Source: Pelagibacteraceae bacterium AG-359-E06 (GTDB taxonomy: Bacteria > Pseudomonadota > Alphaproteobacteria > Pelagibacterales > Pelagibacteraceae). Taken from it: 50,948 nucleotides of DNA. The DNA is taken from assembly GCA_003280495.1 (NCBI GenBank), contig QCET01000005.1:1-50948 (forward strand), written 5' to 3'. This document shows, piece by piece, positions 16,040-46,413 of the stretch. The translations under genes were made by a program, and so were the position numbers. The stretch's first letter is position 1; each line of letters starts with the position of its first letter. Under the pieces are notes generated by a model. That model saw nothing but the letters and a program-made list of their open reading frames with translations, did no database searches and was not told the DNA's origin.

Positions 16040-16040
16040 A

Positions 16041-17585: not shown

Positions 17586-17586
17586 T

Positions 17587-23626: not shown

Positions 23627-23656
23627 AAACTTAATGATTTCATATCTTGAATCTGA

Positions 23657-24595: not shown

Positions 24596-24626
24596 AATAG
24601 CTTAACACAAATTTTAATACTTTTGA

Positions 24627-24649
24627 TGGTGGGGCAGTAAGATTTGAAG
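24627..24649 (-). repeat. decayed fourth copy of the tRNA-Pro 3' end
   Basis: TGGTGGGGCAGTAAGATTTG plus a few bases aligns to the start of the attachment copies (TGGTCGGGGCAGCAAGATTT) with one deleted base and one C-to-T change. It covers the CCA end, the acceptor strand and the T arm only. Both flanks are coding-poor and lack recognisable element ends. It is most simply an old junction that has decayed. Confidence 0.6.
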
Positions 24650-24663
24650 ATGATTTAATTAGG

Positions 24664-25194: not shown

Positions 25195-25202
25195 TAAGCG
25201 AG

Positions 25203-25586: not shown

Positions 25587-25672
25587 AAAGAAATTATTTT
25601 AAAATATACATTATGAACCATAGAACTTACAGTTTTAATGTAAAAAATTTGCCCACATAGAACAACATCACG

Positions 25673-25798
25673 GAAACTATATTTCTGCACCTACATTGCA
25701 CCTACAAATAATCTCCAAAAGGTTTAAAAGGTAACTAAAATATAACTTTCTAAATTCTTCCAAAAGTTATAGAGCATGCGGAGAACCGCGTTGAAATA
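25673..25798. repeat. right element end (copy 1)
   Basis: These 126 bases match 46211-46336 almost throughout, differing at scattered positions. They contain TGCACCTACATTGCACCTAC, two direct TGCACCTACA motifs 11 bases apart (one helical turn), and the small hairpin GCGGAGAACCGC just before the tRNA copy. Paired motifs spaced by a helical turn are typical of integrase arm sites; that reading is inference. Confidence 0.8.
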
Positions 25799-25847
25799 TG
25801 GTCGGGGCAGCAAGATTTGAACTTGCGACCCTCTGGTCCCAAACCAG
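25799..25847 (-). repeat. attachment copy B: displaced 3' part of tRNA-Pro
   Basis: Identical over 49 bases to copy A and to the 3' part of tRNA-Pro. It is preceded by a right element end and followed by a left element end, so it is the junction between two tandem elements sharing one attachment family. It cannot encode a tRNA. Confidence 0.93.
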
Positions 25848-26041: not shown

Positions 26042-26061
26042 CAATTCTAGAGTCTAAAAAA
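26042..26061. repeat. 20-bp direct repeat, left copy
   Basis: CAATTCTAGAGTCTAAAAAA occurs exactly here and at 30631-30650, flanking the nested unit with the MscS fusion and lyase genes. It could be a duplicated target or a recombination core. Confidence 0.7.
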
Positions 26062-26276
26062 TTTTCATAAAAGATTAATAAACTTTATATAAAATCTTAA
26101 TAATGTTTATTTAAGTAATTGTCATATGAAACTTTCAAACTTTAGATTTGTCCCCTGGGATCAAGATGAGCTTGACACAAGGCTAAGGCCTCTTGAGCCA
26201 GCAGCTTGATTTCATATAATTTAGGCTGACATGTGTTTTACTCCCTGTTAGAAAATATTTTGTCAGCCTAACCAAA
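26062..26276 (-). repeat. 215-bp repeat R1 with hairpin (copy of the lyase leader)
   Basis: Nearly identical to 30408-30622. Read on the minus strand it is the leader of the lyase gene, including its start codon, but here the frame is MKIF followed at once by TAG, so this copy leads to no gene. It contains TTAGGCTGACA (26221) pairing with TGTCAGCCTAA (26261-26271). The last 74 bases are tandemly repeated in degenerate form at 26276-26342. This hairpin lies downstream of the MscS-fusion stop and might end that transcript. Confidence 0.7.
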
Positions 26277-29505: not shown

Positions 29506-30414
29506 CTATTCTAAAATGCTACTTGGAAATCTCCTTATTGCATTTATTTCAAGTTTTTTAGCTCCACTATATCTAAAAAATTCATATTCATTTACTGTTT
29601 GGGATACTAGTTTTTGACATTGATATGATCCTACGAGTTTTTCACAACTATTCTCCTCTTTAACTCCGTCAAAAAAAATAATCCTTTGAGGCATAGTTTG
29701 TGTTTCAAATGCAGATTTATATCGAGAAATAAAAGAAGAATACAAACCATATCTTAAACTTAATTCTGTCCCCCTTTTAGTATTAGAGATACCTTTAAAA
29801 TCTATTTTTAATTTTCCATCAATCCAAACTTTCATAAAACCTTTTTCCGATTTTGGATGCCAATTCGTATTAAAAATAATTTCTGTCCAATTTCCTATTA
29901 ATTCTTCATTACGCTTTAGTACGATGTATGAGTTTTTAAAAGAATCTCCATTTCTATTAAAAGTTAATCCAGCGTGCATATGCTGAAACATCACTAATAC
30001 TTTTGATGGATTATGTCTTTTCCATTGTATTAATGACATTTTTGCAGGTGCTACAGAATTATAGTCTTTTGGAAAATATATATAAAATCGATACCAACGT
30101 TCTTTTTTCCAAAGTTTTTTGTGATAATATAACTCTGTACGCTCTCTATCATTTGTACAATCATTCCAATTTGGTTCCTTTCCACATTCGCCATTATTAG
30201 ACTCAAATCTAATTGATTTTTTTCCAACAATTGAAAAATCACTTACAGACACAGGATTGACTGCTTTAGGTGAATTTAAAATATGAAAACTTTTTGGAAT
30301 TGCCTTTCCATATCCATCTTCTTTTAAAGCTTTTTCTACGTCAGAAAATTTTGTTTTAGCAAAGGTATGATTGCTACACATGAAACCAAATAAAAGTATA
30401 AAAAAAATTTTCAT
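29506..30414 (-). CDS. secreted polysaccharide-lyase-like protein (heparin-lyase-I fold)
   Basis: A 302-residue protein with signal peptide MKIFFILLFGFMCSNHTFAK, probably cleaved after FAK. The body has NDRERTELYYHKKLWKKERW, WYRFYIYFPKDYNS, SLIQWKRHN, GNWTEIIFNTNWHP and GFMKVWIDGKL, the jelly-roll pattern of the Polysacc_lyase (PF14099) group. It probably binds or cleaves an acidic polysaccharide in the periplasm or outside the cell. The catalytic residues cannot be fixed by eye. It is preceded by the 215-base leader repeat and is part of the nested unit. Confidence 0.75.
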   Translation of the reverse strand: MKIFFILLFGFMCSNHTFAKTKFSDVEKALKEDGYGKAIPKSFHILNSPKAVNPVSVSDFSIVGKKSIRFESNNGECGKEPNWNDCTNDRERTELYYHKKLWKKERWYRFYIYFPKDYNSVAPAKMSLIQWKRHNPSKVLVMFQHMHAGLTFNRNGDSFKNSYIVLKRNEELIGNWTEIIFNTNWHPKSEKGFMKVWIDGKLKIDFKGISNTKRGTELSLRYGLYSSFISRYKSAFETQTMPQRIIFFDGVKEENSCEKLVGSYQCQKLVSQTVNEYEFFRYSGAKKLEINAIRRFPSSILE

Positions 30415-30622
30415 AAAAGATTCATAAAATTTATATGTAATCTTAATAATATTTATTTAAATCGCTGTCATATGAAATTTTCAAACTTTAGATTTGTCCC
30501 CTGGGATCAAGATGAGCTTGACACAAGGCCAAGGCCTCTTGAGCCAGCAGCTTGATTTCATATAAGTTAGGCTGACATGTGTTTTACTCCCTGTTAGAAA
30601 ATATTTTGTCAGCCTAACCAAA
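30408..30622 (-). repeat. 215-bp repeat R2, leader of the lyase gene, with 12-bp inverted repeat
   Basis: Matches R1 (26062-26276) with only scattered differences and begins at the lyase start codon. It includes a perfect inverted repeat, GTTAGGCTGACA (30566) with TGTCAGCCTAAC (30607-30618), around a 29-base loop, which should fold strongly in RNA or single-stranded DNA. It may be a structured 5' leader, a promoter region or a terminal repeat of the nested unit. Confidence 0.7.
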
Positions 30623-31257: not shown

Positions 31258-31833
31258 ATGAAAAAGCTTTTAACAATCATGGTTCTGGGTTTGTTATCGA
31301 GCGGGAATGCTTACGCAGAAAACAAATGGAAATTTACTAGTAACGATAACGCTGTAAGAGCTGAAATTAATGGTGAAAAAAGTTTTGGTGATAAGTTTAT
31401 CTATGCGCTTCTCAAAGAAAAAAATAAATGCGAAAAAATGATTATTTTATTTTCAATTATAAGTAACGGAAAACATGATTTAAATAAAATATTAGGTCAA
31501 AAGATACCTATAAAAATAAATGGAATGGGTCCTCTAAGTGCATTGATTGTTAGAGTGACATCAGCATTCGAAAATGTAGAAAATGCTCCGTTAGACTTAA
31601 CACAAGAACAAATTGACAGAGCAAAAAAAACTCAAATAGTGATAATCCAAATAGGCGGGGAAAGATCAATTGATGGATATAATTTTAAAAGAGTTGCTAT
31701 GAAGACCACTATTGATTTAGTTAAAGTTGATGAATTCGATCCATCTGAATATTTTCTTAATTTATCTAATACCTGGGACTTGACAAAAAATCGTTCTGCT
31801 ATTGATGTTGGATTAGGAATGTGTAAATTATAA
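31258..31833 (+). CDS. secreted hypothetical protein with the shared signal-peptide cassette
   Basis: A 191-residue exported protein with signal peptide MKKLLTIMVLGLLSSGNAYA and probable cleavage after AYA. The mature part has a beta-rich look (WKFTSNDNAVRAEINGEKSF, ending IDVGLGMCKL) and two cysteines, but no recognised domain. The DNA of the first dozen codons is nearly identical to that at 32191, while the rest is unrelated, so the signal sequence behaves like a swappable cassette. It ends exactly where a decayed cassette copy begins. Confidence 0.6.
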   Translation: MKKLLTIMVLGLLSSGNAYAENKWKFTSNDNAVRAEINGEKSFGDKFIYALLKEKNKCEKMIILFSIISNGKHDLNKILGQKIPIKINGMGPLSALIVRVTSAFENVENAPLDLTQEQIDRAKKTQIVIIQIGGERSIDGYNFKRVAMKTTIDLVKVDEFDPSEYFLNLSNTWDLTKNRSAIDVGLGMCKL

Positions 31834-31858
31834 AAAACTTTAACAATACTGGTATTGA
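31833..31858 (+). repeat. decayed copy of the signal-peptide cassette
   Basis: AAAAACTTTAACAATACTGG resembles the cassette AAAAAGCTTTTAACAATCATGG at 31261 but has lost the start codon and quickly runs into a stop (KTLTILVLI then TAA). It begins at the stop codon of the preceding gene. Confidence 0.5.
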
Positions 31859-31866
31859 TTTAAACT

Positions 31867-32190
31867 ATGTTTAAATGGTTAAGAGATAAAATAAATACAG
31901 GTTCAGAAAATGAGTATAAGAATGGCCTTGCAAGAAATGCAAACTTCCTTAATTTCCTAATGAACGAATTGCCTACTAGGCCAGAATTTAATCATTTAAA
32001 TCATGCCCGAATTTTAGGTGATATTGATATCACGAAATTGTTAAAGGAAAATAATGAACTTCTAAAATTAGGATATAGCAAAGAAAATATGGCACGCCTA
32101 CTTGATTTAGATATGAATTGTAGAAGATGTTGGGGAAACGTTTTGAGTCAAAGTGATTTAAAATATAATAAAACATTTGATCCTAAATAA
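31867..32190 (+). CDS. hypothetical soluble protein
   Basis: A 107-residue protein without a signal peptide: MFKWLRDKINTGSENEYKNG, FLMNELPTRPEFNHLNHARI, and a C-terminal LLDLDMNCRRCWGNVLSQS with a CxxC. The CRRC motif is single, so a zinc site is not assured. Its TAA directly abuts the ATG of the next secreted-protein gene, suggesting coupled translation or an insertion boundary. No family is recognised. Confidence 0.55.
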   Translation: MFKWLRDKINTGSENEYKNGLARNANFLNFLMNELPTRPEFNHLNHARILGDIDITKLLKENNELLKLGYSKENMARLLDLDMNCRRCWGNVLSQSDLKYNKTFDPK

Positions 32191-32817
32191 ATGAAAAAGC
32201 TTTTAGGGATCATGGTTCTGGGCTTGTTTGTTCTTGAATTAAATGTTGGAGCGAGAGAAGTATTAGAAAGCAAAAAATTAGATGCTTGGAAAGTTGATGG
32301 TAAATTTATCATTCCAGAGTGTTTGGTGTATGAATGGTATTCTGGAGATAATTATGAAGAATTTTATGAAAAATATTTTAATAAAAAAGGAGATCATGCA
32401 GATCCAAAATTTAAAAATTTTATAAAAAATATAGGTTTGTTTTTAAATAAGGAGGTTCCTTTAAAAAACACGATTAAAACAGGTTGGAGTTCTCCAAATG
32501 AGGAAATATCTTTAACCAAAAATGTATCTGATTGTTTAAGCAAAAATCCTGAAACATATGTCACTGGTCCTTTTATAGGTACATACGATGGCTATAAAGT
32601 TATAAAAACAATAGATATTCAGAGAGGTTTAAAATTAGCTCCAAATATAAGCCAAAAATTTTTATCAATTAAACTTATTGAGCGGATCAATAGACCTGGG
32701 AGAATGGGTTCGAGATATCATTATAATATTTATGGAATAATTAATTTAAATGGCGAAAAGGTAATTGTACCTTTAAAAAATGAGCAAAATGATAAGTCTG
32801 TTAGAAAAAAATTTTAA
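32191..32817 (+). CDS. secreted hypothetical protein with the shared signal-peptide cassette
   Basis: A 208-residue exported protein. The signal MKKLLGIMVLGLFVLELNVG is nearly identical at the DNA level to that at 31258, but the mature part is different (ARE-VLESKKLDAWKVDGKFII, SRYHYNIYGIINLNGEKVIV). Cysteines occur in IPECLVYEW and SDCLSKNP. No domain is recognised. Like its neighbour, it ends where a decayed cassette copy starts. It is probably periplasmic. Confidence 0.6.
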   Translation: MKKLLGIMVLGLFVLELNVGAREVLESKKLDAWKVDGKFIIPECLVYEWYSGDNYEEFYEKYFNKKGDHADPKFKNFIKNIGLFLNKEVPLKNTIKTGWSSPNEEISLTKNVSDCLSKNPETYVTGPFIGTYDGYKVIKTIDIQRGLKLAPNISQKFLSIKLIERINRPGRMGSRYHYNIYGIINLNGEKVIVPLKNEQNDKSVRKKF

Positions 32818-32900
32818 CAATCCTGGTTGTGGGTTTGTTGTTTACAAACAATCTGCCTGCAGAAAATTTAGGTATAGACAAAACAGTTAATGATTATTGA
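32805..32900 (+). pseudogene. start-less remnant of a signal-peptide-cassette gene
   Basis: A 31-codon frame reads KKILTILVVGLLFTNNLPAE and ends NDY. It is a good signal peptide in the pattern of the two intact cassettes but is preceded by a TAG and has no start codon. It overlaps the end of the 208-residue gene in another frame and the start of the next membrane-protein gene. Confidence 0.5.
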
Positions 32901-33658: not shown

Positions 33659-34046
33659 GGAAATTAACAAAAAACTTATAACACAAGCATCGTTCATTGG
33701 CCCTCTCTGGTTTCGGTGGTTAATGATGTTTCCTGGTTTCTTTTTTTGGTTTATTGAGCCGCTTAGCCAATCAATTTTTGACTTTAAGTTAGCCTGGCAT
33801 TTTTTAAGTTTTGGTGAAGTATGGTTTGATAATAAACAGCATTTATTATTTTTTTTCTTTGCTTGTTTTATGTCTTTTTGTGTTTTGTCGTTCTGTGTTT
33901 TCTTTCCTAGTTTTTGGATAATGTTAACCGGGATTATTTTTAAAGGGATACTAAGTACAAAATCTGTTTTGTTTTTAACCTTCCCACTTTTAGGCGCTAT
34001 ATTTTTTTATGATTTATTTAGGCGAGTGATTGATTGGATTAGATAA
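33645..34046 (+). CDS. hypothetical membrane protein
   Basis: A 133-residue hydrophobic protein with about three helices (WFRWLMMFPGFFFWFIEPL; LFFFFACFMSFCVLSFCVFF; SVLFLTFPLLGAIFFYDLF). It is rich in phenylalanine and tryptophan and has no recognised domain. Its end overlaps the end of the SEL1-repeat gene on the other strand by 33 bases, so this is where the plus-strand small-gene cluster meets the six-gene operon. Confidence 0.55.
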   Translation: MKIIKEINKKLITQASFIGPLWFRWLMMFPGFFFWFIEPLSQSIFDFKLAWHFLSFGEVWFDNKQHLLFFFFACFMSFCVLSFCVFFPSFWIMLTGIIFKGILSTKSVLFLTFPLLGAIFFYDLFRRVIDWIR

Positions 34047-35978
34047 TTTATTATCTTTTTTTCTTTTATAGAATTTTTCTTCATTTAAAATGCTCTTATT
34101 GTCTTTAAGCCATTTATCCGCATAATTATTTGCAAGTTCTTTTTGATATGAGCTCATCTTACTCATATTTTCTGACACACGATCAGCTGTTTTAGAATTA
34201 TATTTAATTTTATTTGCAATAATAAAGTGCTTTGTGGATTGTACCAAATTTCGTGGAATGACGGAACGTTCACCCCACAAATAATATAATCCTAACATTT
34301 CGTGAGACTTATCATCACCCAAATTTGATCCTTCTACTGCTACATCAATCGCTTTTTTGTACTGTTTTTGCTTTAAATAAAGTATAGATAATCTTAAATA
34401 ACTGTCTTTAACTTTATATTTTTTTGTTTCTTCTAAAATGCTGATTGCTTTAGAAATATCTTTGTCAGGATTGTCATCATAAGCATACGTTCTTCCGATC
34501 CAATAACGTGCCTCATAATCTCCTTGCTCTGAAGCAAGCTTTAAATATTTGAGTGCCTCTTTATAATTTTTTTTTGCACCCATGTCATCACCTAACAAAG
34601 CTATTCCAGCTAAAAATTGAGCATCTATAACTCCCTTGTCAGCAGCAATTTTAGTGTAATAAAAAGATTTTTCATCGTTTTTTCCTGAATAATCCTTTTT
34701 AGCTAGAAGAATTGCCAACGCGTAAGTTCCTTGAATAATGCCTTTTTTATGAGATATTACAAAATATTTTTCAGCTAATGATAAATCTAAAGTTAAACCA
34801 TCACCATTAAAATAGGCTATACCAACATTGTATGCAGCTCTTCCATGACCCTTGTTTGCAGCTTTTAGGAACCAAGAATTAGCTTTTTGAAGATCTTTAC
34901 CCAATCTGTCATCTCTTTGGTAAAGCAAACCCATTCCATACATACAATTACTGTTACCTTTATTGGCACATTCTAACCAAACGATTTTCGCTTTATTAAA
35001 CTTTTTCTTATTAAATAAATCCTTACCTTTTTTAAATTTATCAAATAAAGCAAAAGAAGGTTTTTCCTTTTTAATAGTATATTGATCTTTTACTTCAACC
35101 TTATCAACAGATGAATAAAGACCTAATACCATAAAACAAAAAACAGCAGCTCCAAATGAAGCATATATTGAAGTCTGATTAGTTTTTTTCGATTTTTTAA
35201 TTAATTCTGGATCAGGACTGTAATTAAAGTCATCTATAATTTTTTTTTCTTTTATAGAAGCAGGTTGATTTTCATCATAAATTTCCTCATCATATCTTTC
35301 TGAATTATCGTTTAACGATCTTGAGCCTACACTAACAAGTCCATAAGCAATTGCTCCAATAATTAAAGGAGAGACTTTTGATATAGGTCCAGGAAGAAAA
35401 GGTGTAATATTAATGCCAACCCAAGATAATGCAAAATCGGCAAAAGCAAAAATACCCAATGCATACCCCAGCATCAATGATAATTTTTCTAATGGCGTAT
35501 GATTTTCACCACTATAACCTTCAACTACTTTGCTTTGATTTTGAATGCTATTTTCCAAAACAGCTACCTGAGTCTCTACTTCGTCAACAATCTCTTCATT
35601 TATAATTTTATCTTCTTCCACCTTTTTTTCTTTTTTAGTAACTCGTTTTTTTTTAGTCTTAGTTTTAGATTTTGGTCTTGAGAAGATTTCTTTATCTACT
35701 TGTTCATCTACATTTTCTTCAACAACTTTATTCACCTCTTCCAAAGTTGTTTTTTCAACAATATTCTCGTCTAATATTTCTTTCACATTTTCTTTTTCTG
35801 TTTGTGAAAATAATGTTTTAAGTTCTTCGATTTCTGTTACTGATTGCCATTTCCCTCTTAAACCTTTTTTAACTTGAGTAGTTTTTTTTATGATACCGTC
35901 CTTTATTAATGATTTTACGGAGTCTATTGAGTTTACTTTTAATTGTTCACCATTTTCTTTTTTGAAAATATAAATCAT
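34014..35978 (-). CDS. GYF_2-like / SEL1-repeat membrane protein (operon gene 6)
   Basis: A 654-residue protein ending the operon. The N-terminus (MIYIFKKENGEQLKVNSIDS, then LIKDGIIKKTTQVKKG) resembles the GYF_2 or DUF4339 adaptor fold. A long acidic and lysine-rich linker follows, then helices near 165-215 and 275-295. From about residue 310 on come SEL1-like repeats: KGNSNCMYGMGLLYQRDDRL, GHGRAAYNVGIAYFNGDGL, GVIDAQFLAGIALLGDDMG, GDYEARYWIGRTYAYDDNP. SEL1 repeats bind partner proteins. It starts three bases after the coiled-coil gene and may link the complex to a target. Confidence 0.78.
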   Translation of the reverse strand: MIYIFKKENGEQLKVNSIDSVKSLIKDGIIKKTTQVKKGLRGKWQSVTEIEELKTLFSQTEKENVKEILDENIVEKTTLEEVNKVVEENVDEQVDKEIFSRPKSKTKTKKKRVTKKEKKVEEDKIINEEIVDEVETQVAVLENSIQNQSKVVEGYSGENHTPLEKLSLMLGYALGIFAFADFALSWVGINITPFLPGPISKVSPLIIGAIAYGLVSVGSRSLNDNSERYDEEIYDENQPASIKEKKIIDDFNYSPDPELIKKSKKTNQTSIYASFGAAVFCFMVLGLYSSVDKVEVKDQYTIKKEKPSFALFDKFKKGKDLFNKKKFNKAKIVWLECANKGNSNCMYGMGLLYQRDDRLGKDLQKANSWFLKAANKGHGRAAYNVGIAYFNGDGLTLDLSLAEKYFVISHKKGIIQGTYALAILLAKKDYSGKNDEKSFYYTKIAADKGVIDAQFLAGIALLGDDMGAKKNYKEALKYLKLASEQGDYEARYWIGRTYAYDDNPDKDISKAISILEETKKYKVKDSYLRLSILYLKQKQYKKAIDVAVEGSNLGDDKSHEMLGLYYLWGERSVIPRNLVQSTKHFIIANKIKYNSKTADRVSENMSKMSSYQKELANNYADKWLKDNKSILNEEKFYKRKKDNKLSNPINHSPK

Positions 35979-35981
35979 TAT

Positions 35982-37646
35982 TTAACCTGGAAATTCTATT
36001 TTACCTTTTTGTGAAACAACATATGTTGGGCCAATTTTCTGTAGTTTGGCATTCATTCTACAGGTAAATATTGAACCTGATGCTACATCAAATATTCCTC
36101 TGAAATCTCTTTGGGCTTTCTCAAAATCAAGATTCATGTAGGTCGACATATTTTGTTTAACTGCTATTCCTGGCAATGCAATTGATTGATCCTGAAGATC
36201 AACAACCCAAATTTCAGCCTTTTCAAATGACCTTTGGGAAGGAACAATAATTGTTTTTCCTCCATCCTGTCTTTCCTTTCTAGAAAAACCTTTAGCTTTC
36301 CACTTTGATAAAAAAGACGCTACTAATTCAAAATTATCTAAAGTATTTAAATAATCAGATATAACTTCTTCATAAGGATTTGTTTTAACTGACTCTGATT
36401 TTTTTGAGTCTCTAGATAAACTAGATGCTCTCCTTTGTGACACATTTGACCGACTTAAATTTGAAGCTAAATTTGAGAATTGTTGGCTTGAGGATTTTTT
36501 TAAATCATCAATCTGATCAAGTAATTTATCTTGGAAATCCTTTAATTCTTTAACTTTTTTTGAAGTTGATAAATACATAATTAAAAAAACAACAAACAAA
36601 ATAAAGAAAATAAAAGAAAGAACAGAAACTAAATAACTTCCATAACTTTCAAAAAAACCCTTTTCTTCAACTACGGTATACTTTATCTGATCATCTGAAT
36701 CTTTGTCTAATTCACTGATATTTAATAAGTATTTTTCAAGATTACTTTCCAATTCTTTAGACGCTTTTTCAATATCATTTAAATCTTTTTCTTGTCGTGA
36801 ATAGTCCGCAATTTTTTTTCTATTCTTTTTTGAATTATCTAAAGATGTTTTCTTTTCTTCAATTTCATCAATAAGCTTATTATATCTATCTATATTTTTG
36901 GCTAATTTTTTCTCAAATAATTTTAAATCATCATATTTCTTTTTGTAGTTTTGAAGAAACTTTTCTACAAAATCTTTTTTTACAGCATAGTCTTTTGGTG
37001 CAGGGTTTGGCATAGATGATACGAAATTATTTAAATTAAGAATTTTGGCATCAAACTCTTTTGTAAAAATCATTAATTTATCATTGTAATCATTAAATTT
37101 TTTTTCATATTCTTCTTTTTTATTGTTAATTTTTACAATAAAATTTGTTAATTCTTCAGTCAGCTTTTGAGTAACTTGTATATCTGTAGCATTTAATATT
37201 TGTATTTTTTTTTTATCCGCAAGTTCAAAATCTATATAATCAGTTGGTATTTTATATTTAATACTTTTTTCAAATTTCAAAAGAAAGGTATCATCAAAAT
37301 TAAGTTTTTTATCGTTTAAAGTTTTTTTCTTATTTTCAAAAGCTTTTTTAAATAATTTTGTATTATCTTTATCTAAACAAAAATATTTACTCAGGTTTTT
37401 GGATTTTGATCTAATTTCTTTGTCAATTTTTTTATAAATAGTAATTGATCCACTAGTTCGGGTACCGCTCGTTAAATTTTCGCAATAATTTTTACTTTTT
37501 AAATTCTTTAAACTAATTTTTGTGTCATTTTTTTTTTCTTTATTTTCTATTTTTTTATCATCTTTAGATTTAGTTTCACCTTGAGAATATGAAACTATTG
37601 AAAGACTAATAAAAATAATAAAGATAGTGAATAAAATTTTTCTCAT
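35982..37646 (-). CDS. membrane-anchored coiled-coil protein (operon gene 5)
   Basis: A 554-residue protein with a signal peptide (MRKILFTIFIIFISLSIVSY), a long lysine- and glutamate-rich, probably coiled-coil periplasmic part (about 30-330), one strong membrane helix near 335-362 (YLVSVLSFIFFILFVVFLIM), another short coil (KVKELKDFQDKLLDQIDDL), and a compact C-terminal domain (from about 420, ending GPTYVVSQKGKIEFPG). The layout could carry a signal between periplasm and cytoplasm. It overlaps the ATPase gene by one base. No family is recognised. Confidence 0.7.
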   Translation of the reverse strand: MRKILFTIFIIFISLSIVSYSQGETKSKDDKKIENKEKKNDTKISLKNLKSKNYCENLTSGTRTSGSITIYKKIDKEIRSKSKNLSKYFCLDKDNTKLFKKAFENKKKTLNDKKLNFDDTFLLKFEKSIKYKIPTDYIDFELADKKKIQILNATDIQVTQKLTEELTNFIVKINNKKEEYEKKFNDYNDKLMIFTKEFDAKILNLNNFVSSMPNPAPKDYAVKKDFVEKFLQNYKKKYDDLKLFEKKLAKNIDRYNKLIDEIEEKKTSLDNSKKNRKKIADYSRQEKDLNDIEKASKELESNLEKYLLNISELDKDSDDQIKYTVVEEKGFFESYGSYLVSVLSFIFFILFVVFLIMYLSTSKKVKELKDFQDKLLDQIDDLKKSSSQQFSNLASNLSRSNVSQRRASSLSRDSKKSESVKTNPYEEVISDYLNTLDNFELVASFLSKWKAKGFSRKERQDGGKTIIVPSQRSFEKAEIWVVDLQDQSIALPGIAVKQNMSTYMNLDFEKAQRDFRGIFDVASGSIFTCRMNAKLQKIGPTYVVSQKGKIEFPG

Positions 37647-40600
37647 TATATTTTAATTTTATTTTCTATAATTTTATAAATAAGTTCTTTAATCGAAATT
37701 ATAAATAATGGTTCAGTAACTGCAGAATTTTTCATTAATTCATCTGTAGAAACTTCACCACCGCCCGCTTTGCTATCATCAATTAATTTTTGTAATCTAG
37801 ATTTTGTATTTACAAGTTCAGCATTCATTGATCCAATCATATCATTTTTAAACTTTGTGGTAACATTCGGTTTTATCTTGCATGTAGCTTGTAGTAATTC
37901 TAAATAACTTTCTAACTCTGAAAGTTTACTTATTCTCCAAGTTTTTTCAGCAGGATCGAGCTCAGATAACAAGGAAGACGATTTTCCACCAATTGTAATT
38001 TGTTCACCAAGAACAACTTCGTTGGATTTTTCTTTTACATTTAAATCTGTTGCGCCTTCAGTATTAACTAAAAGTCCATGAGAAACTTCATGTTTTGGAA
38101 ATTTTGTAAATTCAAATGAAATTGATTTAAATACCCCTTTAGTAGCTTTTTGAACTAACTTTGCAATACCTGCTTGCTCTTCTTCATCTTGAAAAATAAT
38201 TTTATACAAAGAGCTAGCTTTTCCACCTAAACAAATTTTTAAACCTGAAGATAAAGATTTTTCGAAATTTCTAGCTTCAACAAGATGGTTAATAACATTG
38301 GAAATATAATAAAGGATGCCTGAAAGAGCTATTTCGCTTACATCTCTTAATTTTTTTCCTGTATCAGAACCGCTTACAATCTCAAATCTACTAGAAAAAG
38401 CCTTTGAAAATTCTGGACTATTCACTAATAATTCAATACCATTTTTAATTTTTTCTTCATCGCTCTTAATCGTTTCTAAATCATCAAATGTTGATTGTAA
38501 TAACTCATCATTTCCTGAAATTTCTTGGACTAGAGGTAAATTGTTACTTAAAAATTTAATCAAAACATCTCTACCAGCAAGTTGAAAAGAGTTTCTCCAT
38601 ATTAAATTTAAATTTTGCCATATTGATACATCTGAAGTTCCACCACCAATATCAATAGTCACAACATTTTCTGTAAAAGAAGTTTTTTGACCTGAGGCAA
38701 AGTACAGTGCGCTAGATAAACTTTCAGGACGATATTTTGCAACAGAATTCACTGCTTCTTCATTTAAAAAAGCAATATTAATTGATCGTTTAGATATACT
38801 CTTGAATGCTCTGTACTGATCATTTGAAAAGGCTTCTGGATATGAAAAATTAAAGCTTAAATTTTCTTTACGAATACCTTTTGCAGCAGCTTCAGCAGCT
38901 GCTTGAAGAACTACTTGGGATAAGAAATACTGAACTTTAACCCTATCTTGCTCAGCTTGAGACCATTTTAAATTAAATTTTAATGGTCTTTGATTGTCTG
39001 GCAAATCCTGAATAGCAAACAAGACCTGGTCGACGTAATAAATAAAGTTACTTCTAAATGGATAATTTTCCAAAGTTGTCTCTTTGTTAACTCTTTCTCT
39101 AAGAATAGTCATAAAGGGAATATCTACTTTTTGTGCAGGAACAAACTCTTTATGAGCTTGTACTATCTCGTCAATATCATCCTGGGTATTACCTGGAATG
39201 TAAGGAATATTAATATGTTCATCAAAATTTAAAACTTTAGGATCGTTTGCATTCTCTTTAAAATAAACACATGAATTTGAAGTACCAAAATCAATTCCAA
39301 TAGCCCATTGATTAGAATTTTCATTAACTTTTTTAGGTTTAGGAAAAATGATCAAACCAACATCAAGGCTTTTCTGTTGAGTTACAACTGAGCACATAAC
39401 TGCTTCAGGTGAAGATTTTAATACTTTTAATTCAGTCACAGTAGATGATTCTTCAATTGGAACGTCAATACCTACTGTAACGTGGTTATCTCCTAGATCT
39501 TTACAGAATTTTACTTTATCTGCACCATTTAGTTTAAGAAGTCGATCTCTAATATCAGAAACAGCAAAAATATTATTTGGAACAATGTTAACTTGATTGT
39601 TTCCATCGTAAAACAAATAATACTGATCCCAACTATCGCTTGCAAAATCAGGCCAAGAACTAAAGGCATTAGGAACAGTTCTATTTTTTACTATATCTTT
39701 TGCTTTATAAGATTTTTCTAAATTGTAACGAATAGTATTTCCGTTACCACTTACCAGCTCAAGAATGATACTAGCCTTATAGTTTTCTCCATCCTCAATT
39801 AATGAAAAATTGTTAATAATTTTTGATGGCTCATAAAAAAGCATAAAATTTGATTTGATTGGATATGCATACTGGTAATTATTTAATTTTCTGTGTTCCT
39901 TTAACGAGCTGACGTCAGATGGAAAAATACATAATTTTTCAGTAAAAATATCCTCAGGCTGCAAATATAAAAAACCTTTGTCTGCGCATGACGTTCTAAT
40001 TTCATCGTGAAGTTTAGGTTGTTGTTTGATTGAGTTTAACGAATAATTATCCCATACTATAAGTTCAGATAATGATTTACCAGTCGATTGAGAAATTTTA
40101 AAATCAGCAAAAATAGCTCCTTTAATTTCATTGGCAAACTCTGGTCTTGGCGTTAATCCTAGATCAAAACTATCTTTTCCACCTGTTTCTCCAATAAAGA
40201 CGTCGGTTACTCGATCATAAATTGGCTGTGGAGGAAGGTTTAAATTTAAATTTTGTCTGGAATACCCTGATACTCGAGATGCACTTGCTAAACTTTGACA
40301 ATCATTTTTAAAATTCTTTAGTTGTAACATAACGGCATTTAAAACTTGCGTATTTTGTGCTGTTACACCTGAAATACTATTGATTAAATTTTCCAAGTAA
40401 TGACCTAAAATTGCATAATGCTCGTTTGTTATATTTTTGCACTTACATGGATTTTGCAAATAACCATCAATATACCAAGGTAAGTTTTGTAAATTTTTTA
40501 CTCCTGTATAATCTTTAGATGCTGCAAGTATTGTATAGGGATTAAATATTGCAATAGGATCGTTGTTAAATTCCAGCAAACCTAATGTTGACCAATCCTG

Positions 40601-41026
40601 TCCTTGAACCATTGTATCTTGTGGAAGTACATCAACTAAAATTTTTGCAAAATCCCTATAATCATTTTGACCTTGTGCAGCAACTGAAAAAGGATTATTT
40701 TTTAACTCATTCAAATTAATGATCTTTGAAGAAAGTTTATAAACATGACTGTAATATGGAGCTAATCCAACAAGCGCTAAAGTGCCTCTCCATTCATTAA
40801 TGGTGGTTTTAACTTCGTTTAATAATCCATTCCTTACAATTAATAATCTTGCCCAAACATCAGGTACAGAATTTAAATCGGTATGAATATTGTCAGATTT
40901 TGGAATTTTTAATCCATTCGCTAATTGAGCTAAAAAATTATAATCTTCAACTTTCCATTCGCCTGATGAGGATAAGTTTGGTACTTGGTTAGCTTCGTGA
41001 AGCGGCGGAAGTAATTTTTTAACCAT
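37646..41026 (-). CDS. large Hsp70/actin-fold ATPase (operon gene 4)
   Basis: A protein of about 1126 residues. The first half is unassigned (KFKNDCQSL and NIFAVSDIRDRLLKLNGADK are examples). The second half has the actin/Hsp70 nucleotide motifs: phosphate-1 AIGIDFGTSNSCVYF near 580, phosphate-2 VVTIDIGGGTSDVSIW near 790, and an adenosine-type CLGGKASSLYK near 935. It should bind and hydrolyse ATP in the cytoplasm. Its size and layout recall SrfB-type proteins, but this was not tested. ATG at 41026 lies two bases after the tubulin-like stop and is preferred over a TTG 12 bases upstream. Confidence 0.8.
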   Translation of the reverse strand: MVKKLLPPLHEANQVPNLSSSGEWKVEDYNFLAQLANGLKIPKSDNIHTDLNSVPDVWARLLIVRNGLLNEVKTTINEWRGTLALVGLAPYYSHVYKLSSKIINLNELKNNPFSVAAQGQNDYRDFAKILVDVLPQDTMVQGQDWSTLGLLEFNNDPIAIFNPYTILAASKDYTGVKNLQNLPWYIDGYLQNPCKCKNITNEHYAILGHYLENLINSISGVTAQNTQVLNAVMLQLKNFKNDCQSLASASRVSGYSRQNLNLNLPPQPIYDRVTDVFIGETGGKDSFDLGLTPRPEFANEIKGAIFADFKISQSTGKSLSELIVWDNYSLNSIKQQPKLHDEIRTSCADKGFLYLQPEDIFTEKLCIFPSDVSSLKEHRKLNNYQYAYPIKSNFMLFYEPSKIINNFSLIEDGENYKASIILELVSGNGNTIRYNLEKSYKAKDIVKNRTVPNAFSSWPDFASDSWDQYYLFYDGNNQVNIVPNNIFAVSDIRDRLLKLNGADKVKFCKDLGDNHVTVGIDVPIEESSTVTELKVLKSSPEAVMCSVVTQQKSLDVGLIIFPKPKKVNENSNQWAIGIDFGTSNSCVYFKENANDPKVLNFDEHINIPYIPGNTQDDIDEIVQAHKEFVPAQKVDIPFMTILRERVNKETTLENYPFRSNFIYYVDQVLFAIQDLPDNQRPLKFNLKWSQAEQDRVKVQYFLSQVVLQAAAEAAAKGIRKENLSFNFSYPEAFSNDQYRAFKSISKRSINIAFLNEEAVNSVAKYRPESLSSALYFASGQKTSFTENVVTIDIGGGTSDVSIWQNLNLIWRNSFQLAGRDVLIKFLSNNLPLVQEISGNDELLQSTFDDLETIKSDEEKIKNGIELLVNSPEFSKAFSSRFEIVSGSDTGKKLRDVSEIALSGILYYISNVINHLVEARNFEKSLSSGLKICLGGKASSLYKIIFQDEEEQAGIAKLVQKATKGVFKSISFEFTKFPKHEVSHGLLVNTEGATDLNVKEKSNEVVLGEQITIGGKSSSLLSELDPAEKTWRISKLSELESYLELLQATCKIKPNVTTKFKNDMIGSMNAELVNTKSRLQKLIDDSKAGGGEVSTDELMKNSAVTEPLFIISIKELIYKIIENKIKI

Positions 41027-41028
41027 AA

Positions 41029-42540
41029 TTAAATACAAGATCTAAATAGCGTATCAACAAAACTACCTAAACCACTTTGCTCCTTAACTTTTTTTAAATA
41101 ACTTAAATTTGCCATCACATCTCTTAATGAACTATTGTAACTGTCATAAAATAAGTCCGTAAACTGCTTCTTTTGTTCATTCGTTAAGTTTTCACTTAAT
41201 TTAATCCTATCGCTAAATTGCTTTGGATCATAATTAACAATTGAACGAGCATCTGTAAGATTAAACTTTTGACCTGATCCTCTCTCTGAAGATAAATTCA
41301 AGTCAGATAACCATTTAATGACATCTATAGATAGCTCTTTTAAATCACTCAATAATGCTTGCTTTTCTTCAGTACCTAGATTTACATCACTACGATTTAA
41401 ATGTCTTTTAAACCAATTTTCATTTGTAAATTTTTTCCAATTACGCTTTGTTAAAGATGGAGCAAATAACCAATGATATGAATAGGCAAATTTAAAGAGT
41501 TGAACAATTTTCTCTTTTGCATCAATTTTAGATGAGATATTGGGAAGATCAGACCATCTAAATTCATTATCCTCACTTTTTCCTATATGTAAGATTTGTT
41601 GATTGCCTAACATCTTGTTTTCTTCGTCAAAAAATCTTAGTGCTCCTAATGCTCCATATAATTCTGGAATTAGTGGAGGGTTGTTTTGTAAGTTTCCACC
41701 AATTTTGAAATTATCTAATTTCATTAAAGGCTCCCATCCTACAACATAAACCTGATCAAAAATCTTTTGATGCTGAAATAACTTTGAATAATATTCCAAT
41801 GCACCGCGTGTTTGATCTAAAAATTCATCAGGTGAGGCATGTATTTCATTAAAATCATCTGGAACTTTGTAATTAAAGTAAGGTAACAAAAGAGCTCCAC
41901 CGATATGAACATTACCAGTTACATTCATATCATTTTGGATATTTTTAATTTTTCTTGCAATATTTGGAAAACCAGATGCCCCTGTTCCTCCAAAGATAGA
42001 GCTAATTAAAAATATTCTAACCTCTTCTCCGCCTCTTGCCTTTTCAAGTGCTGAATAAATATTTTGCCAAAAAGACTCATCTTGTTCATTAACTGACGCG
42101 AGCATTGCAGCAGCCCCTATATTCGGTCTTGCTCTAAAGCCTTCTGATAGATTTTGCTCTCTTTCCTGAGTATCGTATAAACAATCAACCAAACCTTTAA
42201 GTTCAGGTTTTAATAGTGCATAATTAATAACTTCGGATAACTTAGGATCGGCATCTTTTAATGGTAACCACAAAGCATCATTTTTATTTACTGTTATTTG
42301 AGTTTTAAAAATATCGCTTTCAATACTAACATCATCTTTTCCCGTTGTTCTTAAGCGCTCTCTTAAATCAATATATTTATTTAATAAAATTTTAGATTTA
42401 CTGACATTTCCATTTGCTTGGTCTTGATCTACCATACCAACCCAAAGATGTTCAGGACCAAGTCCAGCAATACAAGAATGCAAAATACCTTCTAAACATT
42501 TAGCTCCAGTACCACCAATAGAAATTAAAAAATTTTTCAT
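41029..42540 (-). CDS. tubulin/FtsZ-like GTPase (operon gene 3)
   Basis: A 503-residue protein with the tubulin-superfamily N-terminus: FLISIGGTGAKCLEGILHSC, an aspartate in WVGMVDQDQA, and the glycine-rich phosphate loop SSIFGGTGASGFPNIARKI, equivalent to GGGTGSG. It belongs with the divergent tubulin_2/FtsZ-like families rather than cell-division FtsZ. Makarova and Koonin (2010) described such families, one with a vWA partner, as candidate membrane-remodelling machines. It should polymerise or switch with GTP in the cytoplasm. It overlaps the upstream membrane-protein gene by one base. The T7-loop residues were not assigned by eye. Confidence 0.82.
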   Translation of the reverse strand: MKNFLISIGGTGAKCLEGILHSCIAGLGPEHLWVGMVDQDQANGNVSKSKILLNKYIDLRERLRTTGKDDVSIESDIFKTQITVNKNDALWLPLKDADPKLSEVINYALLKPELKGLVDCLYDTQEREQNLSEGFRARPNIGAAAMLASVNEQDESFWQNIYSALEKARGGEEVRIFLISSIFGGTGASGFPNIARKIKNIQNDMNVTGNVHIGGALLLPYFNYKVPDDFNEIHASPDEFLDQTRGALEYYSKLFQHQKIFDQVYVVGWEPLMKLDNFKIGGNLQNNPPLIPELYGALGALRFFDEENKMLGNQQILHIGKSEDNEFRWSDLPNISSKIDAKEKIVQLFKFAYSYHWLFAPSLTKRNWKKFTNENWFKRHLNRSDVNLGTEEKQALLSDLKELSIDVIKWLSDLNLSSERGSGQKFNLTDARSIVNYDPKQFSDRIKLSENLTNEQKKQFTDLFYDSYNSSLRDVMANLSYLKKVKEQSGLGSFVDTLFRSCI

Positions 42541-43106
42541 TACAAGTTACCTGGAAGTTTAAAAGCTAAAAAGACTGAGCTTCTGTTATGTCTAGCAGTG
42601 CCTAACAAAACAATTAAATAATACATTAATACATAAAAAACTGACAAGCCAATTGTTAATGTAAATGCTCCTTCACCAGATATATATTGAGAACCTAAAA
42701 AAGAGTCTCCACTAAAAAAAACGAATGTACATAAAATAATTAATATGGCAGTAAATACAGCTGAATTAATAATCCAGTATATACTGTAAATTTTTGATTT
42801 GCCTGGCCCGTCAACATTTAAAAAATGTGAAATCACTACCCATCCAAAACCAAATATTAAAGTAGTAGCTAAACTAGTTACAATTGAATAACCAAATACA
42901 TTGCAAACGGGCCCAGCCGCATCTGCAAGTGGGGTCCCTTGAGACTCTATCTCATCAGTAATTATATGATTACCTAAAAAATTAATTGTCCCACCTTCCA
43001 CGGGATTGCTGAACAATAGAGTTGAAAAAGAAATACTTATAAACCCAAAAACTGCAGCTATAATTCCAGGATAAATTAGTGATTTGATTAAATATTTTAT
43101 TTTCAT
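42540..43106 (-). CDS. small multi-span membrane protein (operon gene 2)
   Basis: A 188-residue inner-membrane protein with about four helices: LIYPGIIAAVFGFISISFST, VTSLATTLIFGFGWVVISHF, VFTAILIILCTFVFFSGDSF and TLTIGLSVFYVLMYYLIVLL. The first loop contains NFLGNHIITDEIESQGTPLA and PVCNVFG. No family is recognised. It overlaps vWA by 4 bases and the tubulin-like gene by 1, so it is probably the membrane base of the machine. Confidence 0.72.
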   Translation of the reverse strand: MKIKYLIKSLIYPGIIAAVFGFISISFSTLLFSNPVEGGTINFLGNHIITDEIESQGTPLADAAGPVCNVFGYSIVTSLATTLIFGFGWVVISHFLNVDGPGKSKIYSIYWIINSAVFTAILIILCTFVFFSGDSFLGSQYISGEGAFTLTIGLSVFYVLMYYLIVLLGTARHNRSSVFLAFKLPGNL

Positions 43107-44470
43107 TTTTCCAAATCGAATTGTAAATTTAATGCAGCTATCAAAGTGGGTTTAAATTCTTCCTCTGCTACACTGTTTAGTACTCTTAAAATTTTTTTTA
43201 AATTCAATGTTTTGAAATCAGCAGGTTCTGTATTTTTAAAATCTTCAATAGCCTGCTCTTCAATATCCCATTCTAAAAATACGTTCTCATTATTATTACC
43301 TATTTTATTTGCTATAACTGAGACTTGTACAAAATATTGCCTACCATAGAACATTTTATCCAAATTTTTTGTTCCAAAGATTTTTACACTTAAATTTTCA
43401 TTTGATGCTGAAACATCACTATATTGAATTTCTTTGAACTTGCTCCATGATTTATTACAATTTTTTGTAGACCATATATTTTCAATAATTTTATATTCAG
43501 AAATTCCATTTGAGTCTTGAATTAAAAATTTTGATAAAGGCACATCAAACGTAAGTCTTTTTTTTTTTCTTGATATGCTAAAATTATATGTTGGCAAATT
43601 ACTATAATTGGCAACTTTTACATCTGTGTTTTGTAATATTGAAAAAGTATTATTATTGAAAAATTTTTGATTATTTAAATTATAAGAAATTAAATTACTG
43701 GTAATAATTGAAAATTTATAATTTTTTTCATCATAATCAACGAGCGTTTGTTTAATAATTTTATTTTTTATATCCACGATTTCTCTATCATTCCCAATAA
43801 TTAAAATATAAAAAGGTCTTCTCTTCGCCCCAGAGTAAGTTGCCTCAGTTCCGTCTTTTTTTGGGATATCGTATATAGTTCCTTTAAATGAAGACATCAC
43901 ACCTAACAAACCAATTGATTTCCCATTTTGCAAAATATCTTTAAGCGGTCTAACTAATGTGGCCCTTCTTGAACCCACTAAATGTTTAGATGATACAAAT
44001 AAATCTGTAATAACAATCACAGTTGAGTCCTTTTCTTTTTGTGCGGCCTTAAAAACTAAATCTAATCTTGTTTCCTGATTGTCCAAAGCGCAATCACTTG
44101 CAGCAACTTGGCAATTATAAAAAGTTGGCTTAGTAACTTTCACTACTTGATTTTCATCAATGGGTGTAATTCCTTTACCGAAACGATGATATTTAGTTGG
44201 ACCTGCAATTTCAGCAATTTGAGTAAGATCGTCAATTAAATCTATAAATATATTTTTTTCACCTGGCTGATTTTTTACATATCCATCCATACTTTGAGAT
44301 CCGTCAAAAAATACAAAAACATTTTTTTTTGAATTTGTGACTTTATTTTTTAGACTGTTAGTGCTAACTTTTGTATAATTGGGAGGTTTGCAAAAATCTG
44401 CATAAGACGGACTTATGAAAATTAATAGAAATAATACCACTAAAGGTAACCCGTTTTTTCGTGCTTTCAT
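43103..44470 (-). CDS. exported von Willebrand A-domain protein (operon gene 1)
   Basis: A 455-residue protein. ATG 44470 follows a GGGGAAG ribosome site and opens a clear signal peptide (MKARKNGLPLVVLFLLIFIS, cleavage near SYA), so the longer open frame upstream is not used. The vWA domain has a complete MIDAS: FVFFDGSQSMDGY (DxSxS), a threonine near NQETRLDLVF, and an aspartate in VIVITDLFVS. The C-terminal part is beta-rich and periplasmic. A metal-dependent adhesion domain here would bind a periplasmic partner. It is first in the six-gene operon, and its 5' end overlaps the divergent protease gene. Confidence 0.82.
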   Translation of the reverse strand: MKARKNGLPLVVLFLLIFISPSYADFCKPPNYTKVSTNSLKNKVTNSKKNVFVFFDGSQSMDGYVKNQPGEKNIFIDLIDDLTQIAEIAGPTKYHRFGKGITPIDENQVVKVTKPTFYNCQVAASDCALDNQETRLDLVFKAAQKEKDSTVIVITDLFVSSKHLVGSRRATLVRPLKDILQNGKSIGLLGVMSSFKGTIYDIPKKDGTEATYSGAKRRPFYILIIGNDREIVDIKNKIIKQTLVDYDEKNYKFSIITSNLISYNLNNQKFFNNNTFSILQNTDVKVANYSNLPTYNFSISRKKKRLTFDVPLSKFLIQDSNGISEYKIIENIWSTKNCNKSWSKFKEIQYSDVSASNENLSVKIFGTKNLDKMFYGRQYFVQVSVIANKIGNNNENVFLEWDIEEQAIEDFKNTEPADFKTLNLKKILRVLNSVAEEEFKPTLIAALNLQFDLEK

Positions 44471-45407
44471 TTTACTTCCCCTAATGGGTATACTACTAAA
44501 TTCTTGTTCGGAAAGTCCAGATAAAATTTCTAAGGGCCATCTTGAATCTATGTCATTTGAATGCAAAAATGATACTGATAAAAAGCTCTGTATCAACGAA
44601 TTAAAGACCAAATTCTTTAAAGATGGTAATAATTATATAACATTTGAGGACCTAAATAAATCACAGGCGCGTAGAGTCAAATTAAATTGTCTTAATTATA
44701 AAAAAAGGGGTCTTGTCACCTATAACAACTGTCTAGCTGAGCAAAAAGAATTTGCTCTTACTGGAAAACTTACCGATCAAAAAAGAAAGGAGATTTCAAA
44801 AAGTAATATAGAAGAGCTTTTCAAAAGTTTTTTTTATATATTAGTATTTGACTCAAATAAAAAACCAATTGGACAGGGCTCTGGAATAGCAGTAACAAAA
44901 AATATAATTGCATCTAATTGCCATGTAGTTGGTTCACCAGTAATAAAATATATAAATATTTATTCTGTTTCTGCTAGTAGAAAAAAATCAATCAAACCTC
45001 TCTATAGTGCTAAGTTAATCAATTCAAATTATAATGCCGACACCTGTTTAGTCAAAATTAAAAAAAATAATCTAAAACCTGTTAAAAGAAGATCTTTTAA
45101 AACATTAAAATTTGGTGAATTTGTTCGAGCTATTGGAAACCCAATTGGAATTGTTGGTCACACCTCTACAGGCGAAATTAATAAAATTGATGAAAATTTT
45201 ATAAATGACGAAAAGTTTAAAAATAATAAAGTGATTATTCATGATGCAACGATTGGAAGCGGGAGCTCTGGTGGTCCATTATTTGATTTTAAAGGAAATT
45301 TAATTGGACTTAATACTTTTGGATTTACCACATCCAAAGGTGGTCTAGTTGGTGGAGCTATAAATGTAGCGGTATCAGCAGATTATATAGATGAACTTTT
45401 AGATTAA
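44415..45407 (+). CDS. trypsin-like serine protease, probable lipoprotein
   Basis: A 330-residue protein with a lipoprotein-type signal (FFRAFILLPLMGILLNSC, lipid Cys about residue 31) and a C-terminal trypsin_2/DegP-like domain. The triad is complete: IASNCHVVGS (His), YNADTCLVKI (Asp), GSGSSGGPLFDFKGNLIGL (Ser). There is no PDZ domain. It is divergent from vWA, and the two coding starts overlap head-to-head by 56 bases, which is rare. It may process or guard the operon products in the envelope; that link is by position only. Confidence 0.82.
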   Translation: MKINRNNTTKGNPFFRAFILLPLMGILLNSCSESPDKISKGHLESMSFECKNDTDKKLCINELKTKFFKDGNNYITFEDLNKSQARRVKLNCLNYKKRGLVTYNNCLAEQKEFALTGKLTDQKRKEISKSNIEELFKSFFYILVFDSNKKPIGQGSGIAVTKNIIASNCHVVGSPVIKYINIYSVSASRKKSIKPLYSAKLINSNYNADTCLVKIKKNNLKPVKRRSFKTLKFGEFVRAIGNPIGIVGHTSTGEINKIDENFINDEKFKNNKVIIHDATIGSGSSGGPLFDFKGNLIGLNTFGFTTSKGGLVGGAINVAVSADYIDELLD

Positions 45408-46141
45408 TTTTTAACTTTTATATCAAAGGTTAGATTTTGTATTTTAGTAGTATTATTAAATGCAACAACTCTAACTTGAAGACCTTTTTTTGGAACATTT
45501 AATGTAGTGCTAAAAGAGTTATCACTTTCTATAATTGCTTCTTCATTATTAATCGTAACTTTATTAATTCCATTTTTTTTATTTACAGCTCCTGTTATGG
45601 ATACAAAACCATCACTTTTTACTTGAATTAAATTTGCAGATGTCCATTGGGGGTCTGTAATTACTATATTTTGATTTTCTGATAAATTAATCTTTGCAGA
45701 GCCAAGATTTATTAATTTTGCTACAGAAGATTCTTTTACATAACCTTGTTCACACTTCTTATTATAAACTAAATACCACTCAGGAAGATTTTGAAGCCTG
45801 CTAATAATTGCAATTTTATCATCTTTTGTAATTTTTGAGATAACTTCCGCTTTGTCTTTTGGTGATATTAATAAATTCGTATCTTTAGAAATTTTTGCAT
45901 TTGGAGATAAATAGCTACACTCAGGTGTTTTTCTTGCTAATTTTTTCCACTCACTTACTTCTGCTTGTGATTTATCAAATGTCTTCTTAGTAATTAAACC
46001 AAAATTTTTTAGAAAATCATCTACCACCTTACGTGAATTCTCTTTAAAAGAAGGTTTGCCTTGTTGTTTTGATCCAGACGTGGTCTGGTTAGGACAGCCA
46101 TACAACAATAATAGAGCTAAAATTAGTGTTATAATTTTCAT
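45404..46141 (-). CDS. SH3-type lipoprotein
   Basis: A 245-residue lipoprotein: MKIITLILALLLLYGCPNQT has the lipobox LLYGC. ATG 46141 is chosen over a start five codons upstream, which lengthens the n-region without need. Residues about 90-155 look like a bacterial SH3 domain (AKISKDTNLLISPKDKAEVI, WYLVYNKKCEQGYVKESS), followed by a beta-sandwich-like region (SITGAVNKKNGINKVTINN). Such domains bind cell-wall or protein ligands. It is convergent with the protease gene (4-base overlap) and is the last gene before the right element end. Confidence 0.72.
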   Translation of the reverse strand: MKIITLILALLLLYGCPNQTTSGSKQQGKPSFKENSRKVVDDFLKNFGLITKKTFDKSQAEVSEWKKLARKTPECSYLSPNAKISKDTNLLISPKDKAEVISKITKDDKIAIISRLQNLPEWYLVYNKKCEQGYVKESSVAKLINLGSAKINLSENQNIVITDPQWTSANLIQVKSDGFVSITGAVNKKNGINKVTINNEEAIIESDNSFSTTLNVPKKGLQVRVVAFNNTTKIQNLTFDIKVKN

Positions 46142-46210
46142 AGTTAATTTTAACAAAATAATATTGTATTACAATTTATTTCAAGCAAGAATACCTTAAA
46201 AAAAATCTCA

Positions 46211-46336
46211 GAAACTATATTTCTGCACCTACATTGCACCTACAATTAATCTCCAATAGGTTTAAAAAGTAACTAAAATATAACTTTCTAAATTCATCCA
46301 AAAAGTAGAGAACATGCGGAGAACCGCGTTGAAAAT
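46211..46336. repeat. right element end (copy 2)
   Basis: Matches 25673-25798 and carries the same two TGCACCTACA motifs and the GCGGAGAACCGC hairpin. It directly abuts the CCA end of the intact tRNA-Pro. The gap 46142-46508 contains only this end, the tRNA and about 95 AT-rich bases before nhaA. Confidence 0.8.

Positions 46337-46413
<77 letters not shown>

Follow-up and report, generated by a model that had tools for sequence, protein, structure and literature searches.

Nucleoside triphosphatases (NTPases) of the tubulin and actin folds are mostly investigated separately, each as a cytoskeletal engine. Proteins of the Tubulin_2 family with von Willebrand factor A (vWA)-type neighbours, most of them endowed with long coiled-coil extensions, were described by Makarova and Koonin 2010 (PMC2875224), who proposed a membrane remodelling-type role for these FtsZl1/vWA operons; the parts of their main text consulted contain no report of an actin/Hsp70-like partner. 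The DO-GTPase systems surveyed by Kaur et al. 2020 (PMC7159879) include tubulin or, separately, HSP70 components in non-overlapping themes, and their combination of a constant core with variable parts was used as an argument for conflict systems. Finally, the Zorya defence system contains an ion-driven motor made up of ZorA and ZorB (PMC11890865). Here we analyse a contig of 50,948 nucleotides from Pelagibacteraceae bacterium AG-359-E06 (QCET01000005.1, assembly GCA_003280495.1; 842 kb, 79.6% complete), referred to as the window, which harbours an operon encoding a vWA-like protein, a small membrane protein, a short Tubulin_2-type protein and a large ATPase of the actin/Hsp70 fold (ASKHA), and we compare this locus with its relatives and with the systems named above.

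A conserved core with a tubulin-ASKHA gene pair

The operon consists of six intact open reading frames on the minus strand between 34014 and 44470, as placed by the initial annotation of this DNA. From 5' to 3' they code for the exported vWA-like protein (43103-44470, 455 amino acids from ATG), the small membrane protein (42540-43106, 188 amino acids), the tubulin (41029-42540, 503 amino acids), the ASKHA ATPase (37646-41026, 1126 amino acids from ATG), a coiled-coil protein (35982-37646, 554 amino acids) and a GYF/Sel1 protein as the last gene (34014-35978, 654 amino acids). The genes are tightly packed, with junctions of -4, -1, +2, -1 and +3 bases; the initial annotation had listed overlaps of 4 and 1 and gaps of 2 and 3 bases correctly and overlooked the second 1-base overlap, while all the motifs that it quoted (FFDGSQS, FGGTGASG, DFGTSNS and DIGGGTSD) are present in the open reading frames.

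The first four genes, i.e., those for the vWA-like protein, the membrane protein, a tubulin of about 500 and an ASKHA ATPase of about 1100 amino acids, recur in the same order beyond the window. Genome searches covered the Pseudomonadota, and plasmids and contigs of a viral collection were also scanned, the tubulin scans of the latter two running independently of the ATPase. The core order was found in SAR11 relatives (L011, as well as L010 and L002, which are interrupted by contig ends), in other alphaproteobacteria (L020, L027), on cyanobacterial plasmids of Picosynechococcus (L003, L014, L015) and Gloeothece (L004), in Prevotella of the Bacteroidota (L016) and on viral-collection contigs (L112-L116). 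Gene order is constant in all loci, and only Gloeothece has a divergent vWA gene. The tubulin and ASKHA genes are neighbours at each of the 14 short-clade loci whose flanks can be read (two of which, L115 and L116, are nearly identical), and every plasmid or viral-contig tubulin match that was fetched has the ATPase as a neighbour. The rare co-occurrence elsewhere that would have spoken against a single system thus did not appear, and the earlier view of the tubulin-like and actin-like genes as one conserved system is borne out across Pseudomonadota, Cyanobacteriota, Bacteroidota and viral-collection contigs.

As a contrast set, ten loci with long, FtsZl1-type Tubulin_2 proteins from Pseudomonadota were examined by searching all open reading frames for matches to the ATPase profile or a DnaK-type profile and for the motif pair. 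In nine of the ten, no ASKHA gene was found within the approximately 18-19 kb read. The exception (L029) encodes a protein with a vWA motif, a small protein, a tubulin of about 1050-1092 amino acids and a protein of about 1013-1044 amino acids matching HSP70 (Pfam E = 2.2e-7), which contradicts the view that an ASKHA neighbour is always missing from long FtsZl1 loci. Taken together, short-clade loci invariably combine the two genes wherever the flanks are readable, and at least one locus beyond this clade does so as well. The genes of L029 (4277-12598) follow the same order as those of the short clade, suggesting that the architecture extends past this clade.

The members of the core also co-vary. 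Across 12 loci, pairwise distances correlate at 0.88 for tubulin and ASKHA, 0.73 for vWA and tubulin and 0.45 for membrane protein and tubulin (permutation p 0.0002-0.001), a correlation that in part reflects shared ancestry and is not by itself proof of contact. An accidental adjacency of genes without shared function is refuted by this survey and deserves practically no credence: the same order in distant lineages and the co-varying distances speak against it, and no point in its favour was found. The vWA-like protein, the membrane protein with three to four transmembrane (TM) helices, the short tubulin and the ASKHA ATPase of about 1100 amino acids therefore form one conserved, co-varying gene set, and since the same core is present in cyanobacteria, Bacteroidota and other bacteria, it is best regarded as a real machine.

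The gene set is rare within its own lineage. It was detected in 3 of 297 genomes of the SAR11 family and, by the tubulin profile, in 2 of 385 alphaproteobacterial genomes, the genome of the window being included in both counts. Two further SAR11-family matches (G082, G207) are DnaK and were left out, and a match in the phylum (G646) appears to be weak in a similar way. Phage records yielded no relatives of the ATPase or the tubulin. A wide ATPase scan of the viral contigs mostly returned DnaK-like proteins and was used only for building a detector; the tubulin scan of these contigs provided five useful loci.

Component proteins and exchangeable downstream genes

The window tubulin can be assigned by profile to a short, divergent Tubulin_2 clade. 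It passes the Pfam Tubulin_2 model (PF13809; 34.1 bits, gathering threshold 27), which upholds the earlier tubulin-like call, and contains the T1 motif GGTGAK and the T4 motif FGGTGASG. Fold matches of its structural model are led by tubulin, FtsZ and TubZ with probabilities of 0.99-1.0 and a best E value of only 0.004; the predicted local distance difference test (pLDDT) score of the model is 54 overall and higher in the core. With 503 amino acids, the protein is devoid of the long coiled coil and the alpha-helical C-terminal domain of FtsZl1 (about 1000 amino acids).

Conserved motifs and a fold search indicate that the 1126-residue protein holds an actin/Hsp70-fold ATPase domain, in agreement with the initial annotation. 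A region of approximately 565 residues, for which the libraries searched contained no relative, precedes the ASKHA domain in the C-terminal half, where phosphate-1 (DFGTSN from residue 579), phosphate-2 (DIGGGTSD from residue 792) and adenosine-type (GGKAS near residue 934) motifs are kept across 15 homologues. The Pfam matches to EutA, MreB and HSP70 all lie below the cut-off, and a profile built from nine homologues detects Hsp70 and MreB at both phosphate motifs. The structural model, fairly confident in the C-terminal half only and not reliable in the N-terminal half, gave 255 matches to the PDB at E <= 0.001, with DnaK and MreB/Mbl leading (E ~ 2e-7). A genuine Hsp70 chaperone was rejected as an assignment: the HSP70 score of 12.9 bits is below the cut-off of 20.6, and the ATPase domain is C-terminal, rather than an N-terminal nucleotide-binding domain followed by a substrate-binding domain. 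The closest named relative of the ATPase is encoded in a Candidatus Pelagibacter single-cell genome.

The first gene product is probably vWA-like, judging from its motif, its position and a weak profile match. The protein has a signal or anchor helix (residues 8-26), an FFDGSQSM motif of the metal ion-dependent adhesion site (MIDAS) type and a conserved VITD, corresponding to the DxSxSM and TD motifs of vWA domains. Orthologues are present in L011, L020, L027, L003, L004, L016 and L112-L115, and signal- or lipobox-type N-termini occur on the vWA-like proteins of the loci. Pfam vWA models match neither the window protein nor any of 13 homologues. When the vWA-like profile was compared with a profile of 24 bona fide VWA_2 domains, 139 columns could be aligned, and the motifs of the two sides coincided (E = 1.2e-4 for a single comparison, probability 55), against E values of 0.54 for the ATPase profile and 0.045 for the tubulin profile. 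Hence, the earlier vWA call stands on the MIDAS-type motif, the conserved position and the weak profile-profile match, but not on a Pfam vWA match.

The small membrane protein has four predicted TM helices and is 33% identical to its L011 counterpart; its positional equivalents elsewhere have three to four predicted TM helices. The coiled-coil protein comprises a signal-type helix, a segment of about 315 residues, a TM helix (residues 339-357) and a C-terminal domain, which is demonstrably homologous only among SAR11 and G947 (E 3.5e-7 against a background of 1464 decoys), other lineages giving no more than hints. A C-terminal domain common to all lineages turned out to be a small-database result: with 1464 decoys, homology was found within SAR11 plus G947, separately within the cyanobacteria and separately within G691. 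In the G691 locus L020, the coiled-coil and GYF-like genes (6715-7701 and 15216-16937) have one C-terminal domain in common (E = 2.6e-58 in an iterated search).

The last operon gene encodes a GYF-type N-terminus, about three TM helices and Sel1 repeats (Pfam score 71, cut-off 30.7). The GYF_2 match is weak in the window (E = 0.055), and the N-terminus is clearly homologous in L011. In L011 and L010, DUF805 replaces Sel1, so that only the GYF-type N-terminus is common to the SAR11 loci; a place in the core for the GYF/Sel1 protein, initially counted among the members of the system, is thus not supported.

More generally, the gene 3' of the ASKHA gene usually codes for a TM/coiled-coil protein, and the downstream genes differ by locus, including coiled-coil, GYF/Sel1, DUF805, TM2 and Zorya-like ZorAB proteins. 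A true Hsp70 gene lies further downstream in L112 (E = 2e-30). In L115 (14535-16905) and L116, the two genes directly after the ASKHA gene resemble ZorA and ZorB (E 1.9e-7 and 6e-5) and are followed by a gene for a DUF4357 protein. In L114, an 880-residue TPR protein (14980-17622) directly follows the ASKHA gene and has a weak Hsp70-type profile match, possibly representing a second ASKHA protein; TerD-like genes, guessed by eye in the same locus, have no Pfam support.

Two further genes adjoin the operon in the window. A trypsin-like (HtrA-type) lipoprotein is encoded at 44415-45407 on the plus strand, divergent from the vWA gene, and is supported by Pfam and an L011 orthologue (37% identity). 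An exported SH3-type protein is encoded at 45404-46156 on the minus strand (weak SH3_3 match; L011 orthologue, E = 2e-20). In the SAR11 relative L011, both orthologues lie inside the operon, as its first and second gene, respectively.

A tRNA-Pro island and other mobile surroundings

The suggestion that the operon is carried on a mobile element is confirmed: it lies on an island at a tRNA-Pro gene that contains att-like direct repeats, and the corresponding site is empty in a relative. The integration site and right island border is a tRNA-Pro(TGG) gene (46337-46413, minus strand), and copies of its 49-nucleotide 3' end lie, likewise on the minus strand, at 23461-23509, the left border of the insertion, and internally at 25799-25847. 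The insertion (23461-46336, 22.9 kb) separates a photolyase gene from tRNA-Pro; in the same-genus genome G007 photolyase gene, tRNA-Pro and nhaA are adjacent, and G021 and G009 also are without the insert. As the internal copy is located in a 187-nucleotide repeat that is 93% identical to 46199-46385, the island reads as two tandem insertions (23461-25799 and 25799-46337). No integrase was recognised among the island genes in Pfam and PHROGs scans. Mobile surroundings are also found elsewhere: relaxase and tyrosine integrase genes neighbour L114, and a phage terminase and a resolvase are encoded next to L112.

Tubulin and actin folds drive known plasmid partition systems, and several copies of the gene set are plasmid-borne, which would suit a TubZ- or ParM-like system segregating the plasmid or island. 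Yet, the core retains its exported vWA-like and membrane partners across loci, the Pfam matches of the operon genes include no recognisable DNA-binding adaptor, the window copy is integrated in the chromosome, and the ATPase is approximately three times the size of ParM. A partition function is therefore very improbable.

The island contains additional genes. A 910-residue MscS-type channel (26413-29145) and a polysaccharide lyase (29506-30414) are flanked by a 221-nucleotide direct repeat (95%; 26056-26276 and 30402-30622), and small genes with near-identical starts (38-nucleotide repeat family D4) at 31258-32839 are likely paralogues.

Possible function and relation to known systems

Based on the components, their order and co-variation, the predicted topologies and the mobility, we infer that an exported protein acts as a sensor, that its state is relayed across the membrane and that two nucleotide-driven proteins serve as switches in the cytoplasm. 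Tentatively, and with rather less than even confidence, we propose that the gene set encodes a horizontally mobile NTPase machine that spans the membrane and combines an invariant core with exchangeable outputs; most likely it would serve to sense damage to the envelope or invasion, i.e., in defence or stress. The vWA-like protein would bind a ligand outside the inner membrane via its MIDAS-type site, and the coiled-coil protein, for which segments on both sides of the membrane are predicted, would relay this state inward together with the small membrane protein. At the membrane, the tubulin, by binding GTP, and the ASKHA protein, by cycling ATP, may establish a threshold or build a complex or filament, and the variable genes (coiled coil, GYF/Sel1, TM2, Hsp70, ZorAB-like motor, protease) would execute the response.

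The sensing machine is in line with the adjacent, co-varying core genes, with the signal- or lipobox-type N-termini of the vWA-like proteins and the TM helices, with the patchy, mobile occurrence (the tRNA-Pro island, the few positive SAR11-family genomes, the cyanobacterial plasmids) and with the variable downstream genes, including those resembling ZorA and ZorB, a core-plus-variable pattern as in Kaur et al. 2020. Several points weigh against it. The assignment to vWA is weak, with another residue in place of the MIDAS aspartate in L016, L112, L113 and L115; the tubulin alignment shows no recognisable T7-type catalytic loop, and hydrolysis of GTP and ATP as well as filament formation by the tubulin and ASKHA proteins are assumed. 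Moreover, the window operon encodes no nuclease or recognised toxin, the PADLOC (2023) defence models have no match for the window tubulin, ATPase, membrane or vWA-like protein, the ZorAB-like match is modest and confined to a single lineage (L115/L116), and the link to defence is deduced from sequence comparisons. The sole strong PADLOC match in the window, the trypsin domain in common with RT-Protease_XI, was judged a generic protease match.

A sizeable minority of the probability falls to envelope housekeeping, where tubulin and ASKHA, by polymerising or cycling beneath the inner membrane, would exert an effect on the periplasm via the vWA and coiled-coil proteins as a membrane-remodelling, surface-assembly or export machine with no conflict role. 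Every partner is a membrane or exported protein, the SAR11 loci add protease and SH3-type exported partners, OmpA/MotB-like genes occur near some Tubulin_2 loci, and it is the kind of role put forward for FtsZl1/vWA operons by Makarova and Koonin 2010 (PMC2875224). On the other hand, rarity and mobility in a streamlined lineage (3/297 genomes, island) fit an accessory role better, and neither a secretion channel nor a substrate is recognisable. Sequence cannot decide between conflict or stress and envelope work, but mobility, rarity and changing outputs prompt a slight lean towards the former. That the gene set represents an undescribed class of mobile immune or envelope-stress machines, in which an obligate tubulin/ASKHA NTPase pair acts beneath an exported vWA-type sensor, with interchangeable outputs including a Zorya-like proton motor, is less likely than not.

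A constant, co-varying pair across distant phyla renders testable whether both folds co-assemble or regulate each other at the membrane. The compact clade with its fixed four-gene core narrows the long-open function of Tubulin_2/vWA operons, and the plasmid copies suit expression in laboratory strains.

SrfB is a large protein with actin-like ATPase motifs, a description that also applies to the window ATPase. Yet, in the comparison by Pfam, the SrfB family, considered for the ATPase at the outset, is absent among the matches of nine homologues at E <= 1. Zorya is resembled by L115 and L116 with their ZorA/ZorB-like genes directly 3' of the ASKHA gene; the window operon, in contrast, is without ZorA/ZorB, and its coiled-coil gene matches ZorB1 around the TM segment only (E = 0.005).

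The DO-GTPase/GAP1-N2 systems share with the window locus tubulin, Hsp70-fold, probable vWA and membrane parts as well as a constant core with variable outputs. Since they combine tubulins, vWA and, in another theme, HSP70, the locus might be a member of these conflict systems, but this is improbable: no P-loop GTPase family was found by Pfam in the operon or among the eight window proteins (GAP1 itself was not searched for), and the tubulin and HSP70 themes of these systems do not overlap (PMC7159879).

The tubulin-ASKHA pair is not described in the open literature searched, of which coverage was incomplete. The relationship to the Tubulin_2/vWA systems described by Makarova and Koonin, suggested initially, holds in outline: the window has a Tubulin_2 domain, an adjacent exported and probably vWA-like protein and membrane partners. 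The window tubulin, however, is short and divergent and lacks their coiled-coil extension and C-terminal domain. The window operon also differs in having no protein kinase or GTPase, and the ASKHA protein, constant in the short clade, is missing from nine of ten long-type loci. We file the gene set as a variant of the Tubulin_2/vWA kind, characterised by the pairing of a tubulin with an ASKHA ATPase.

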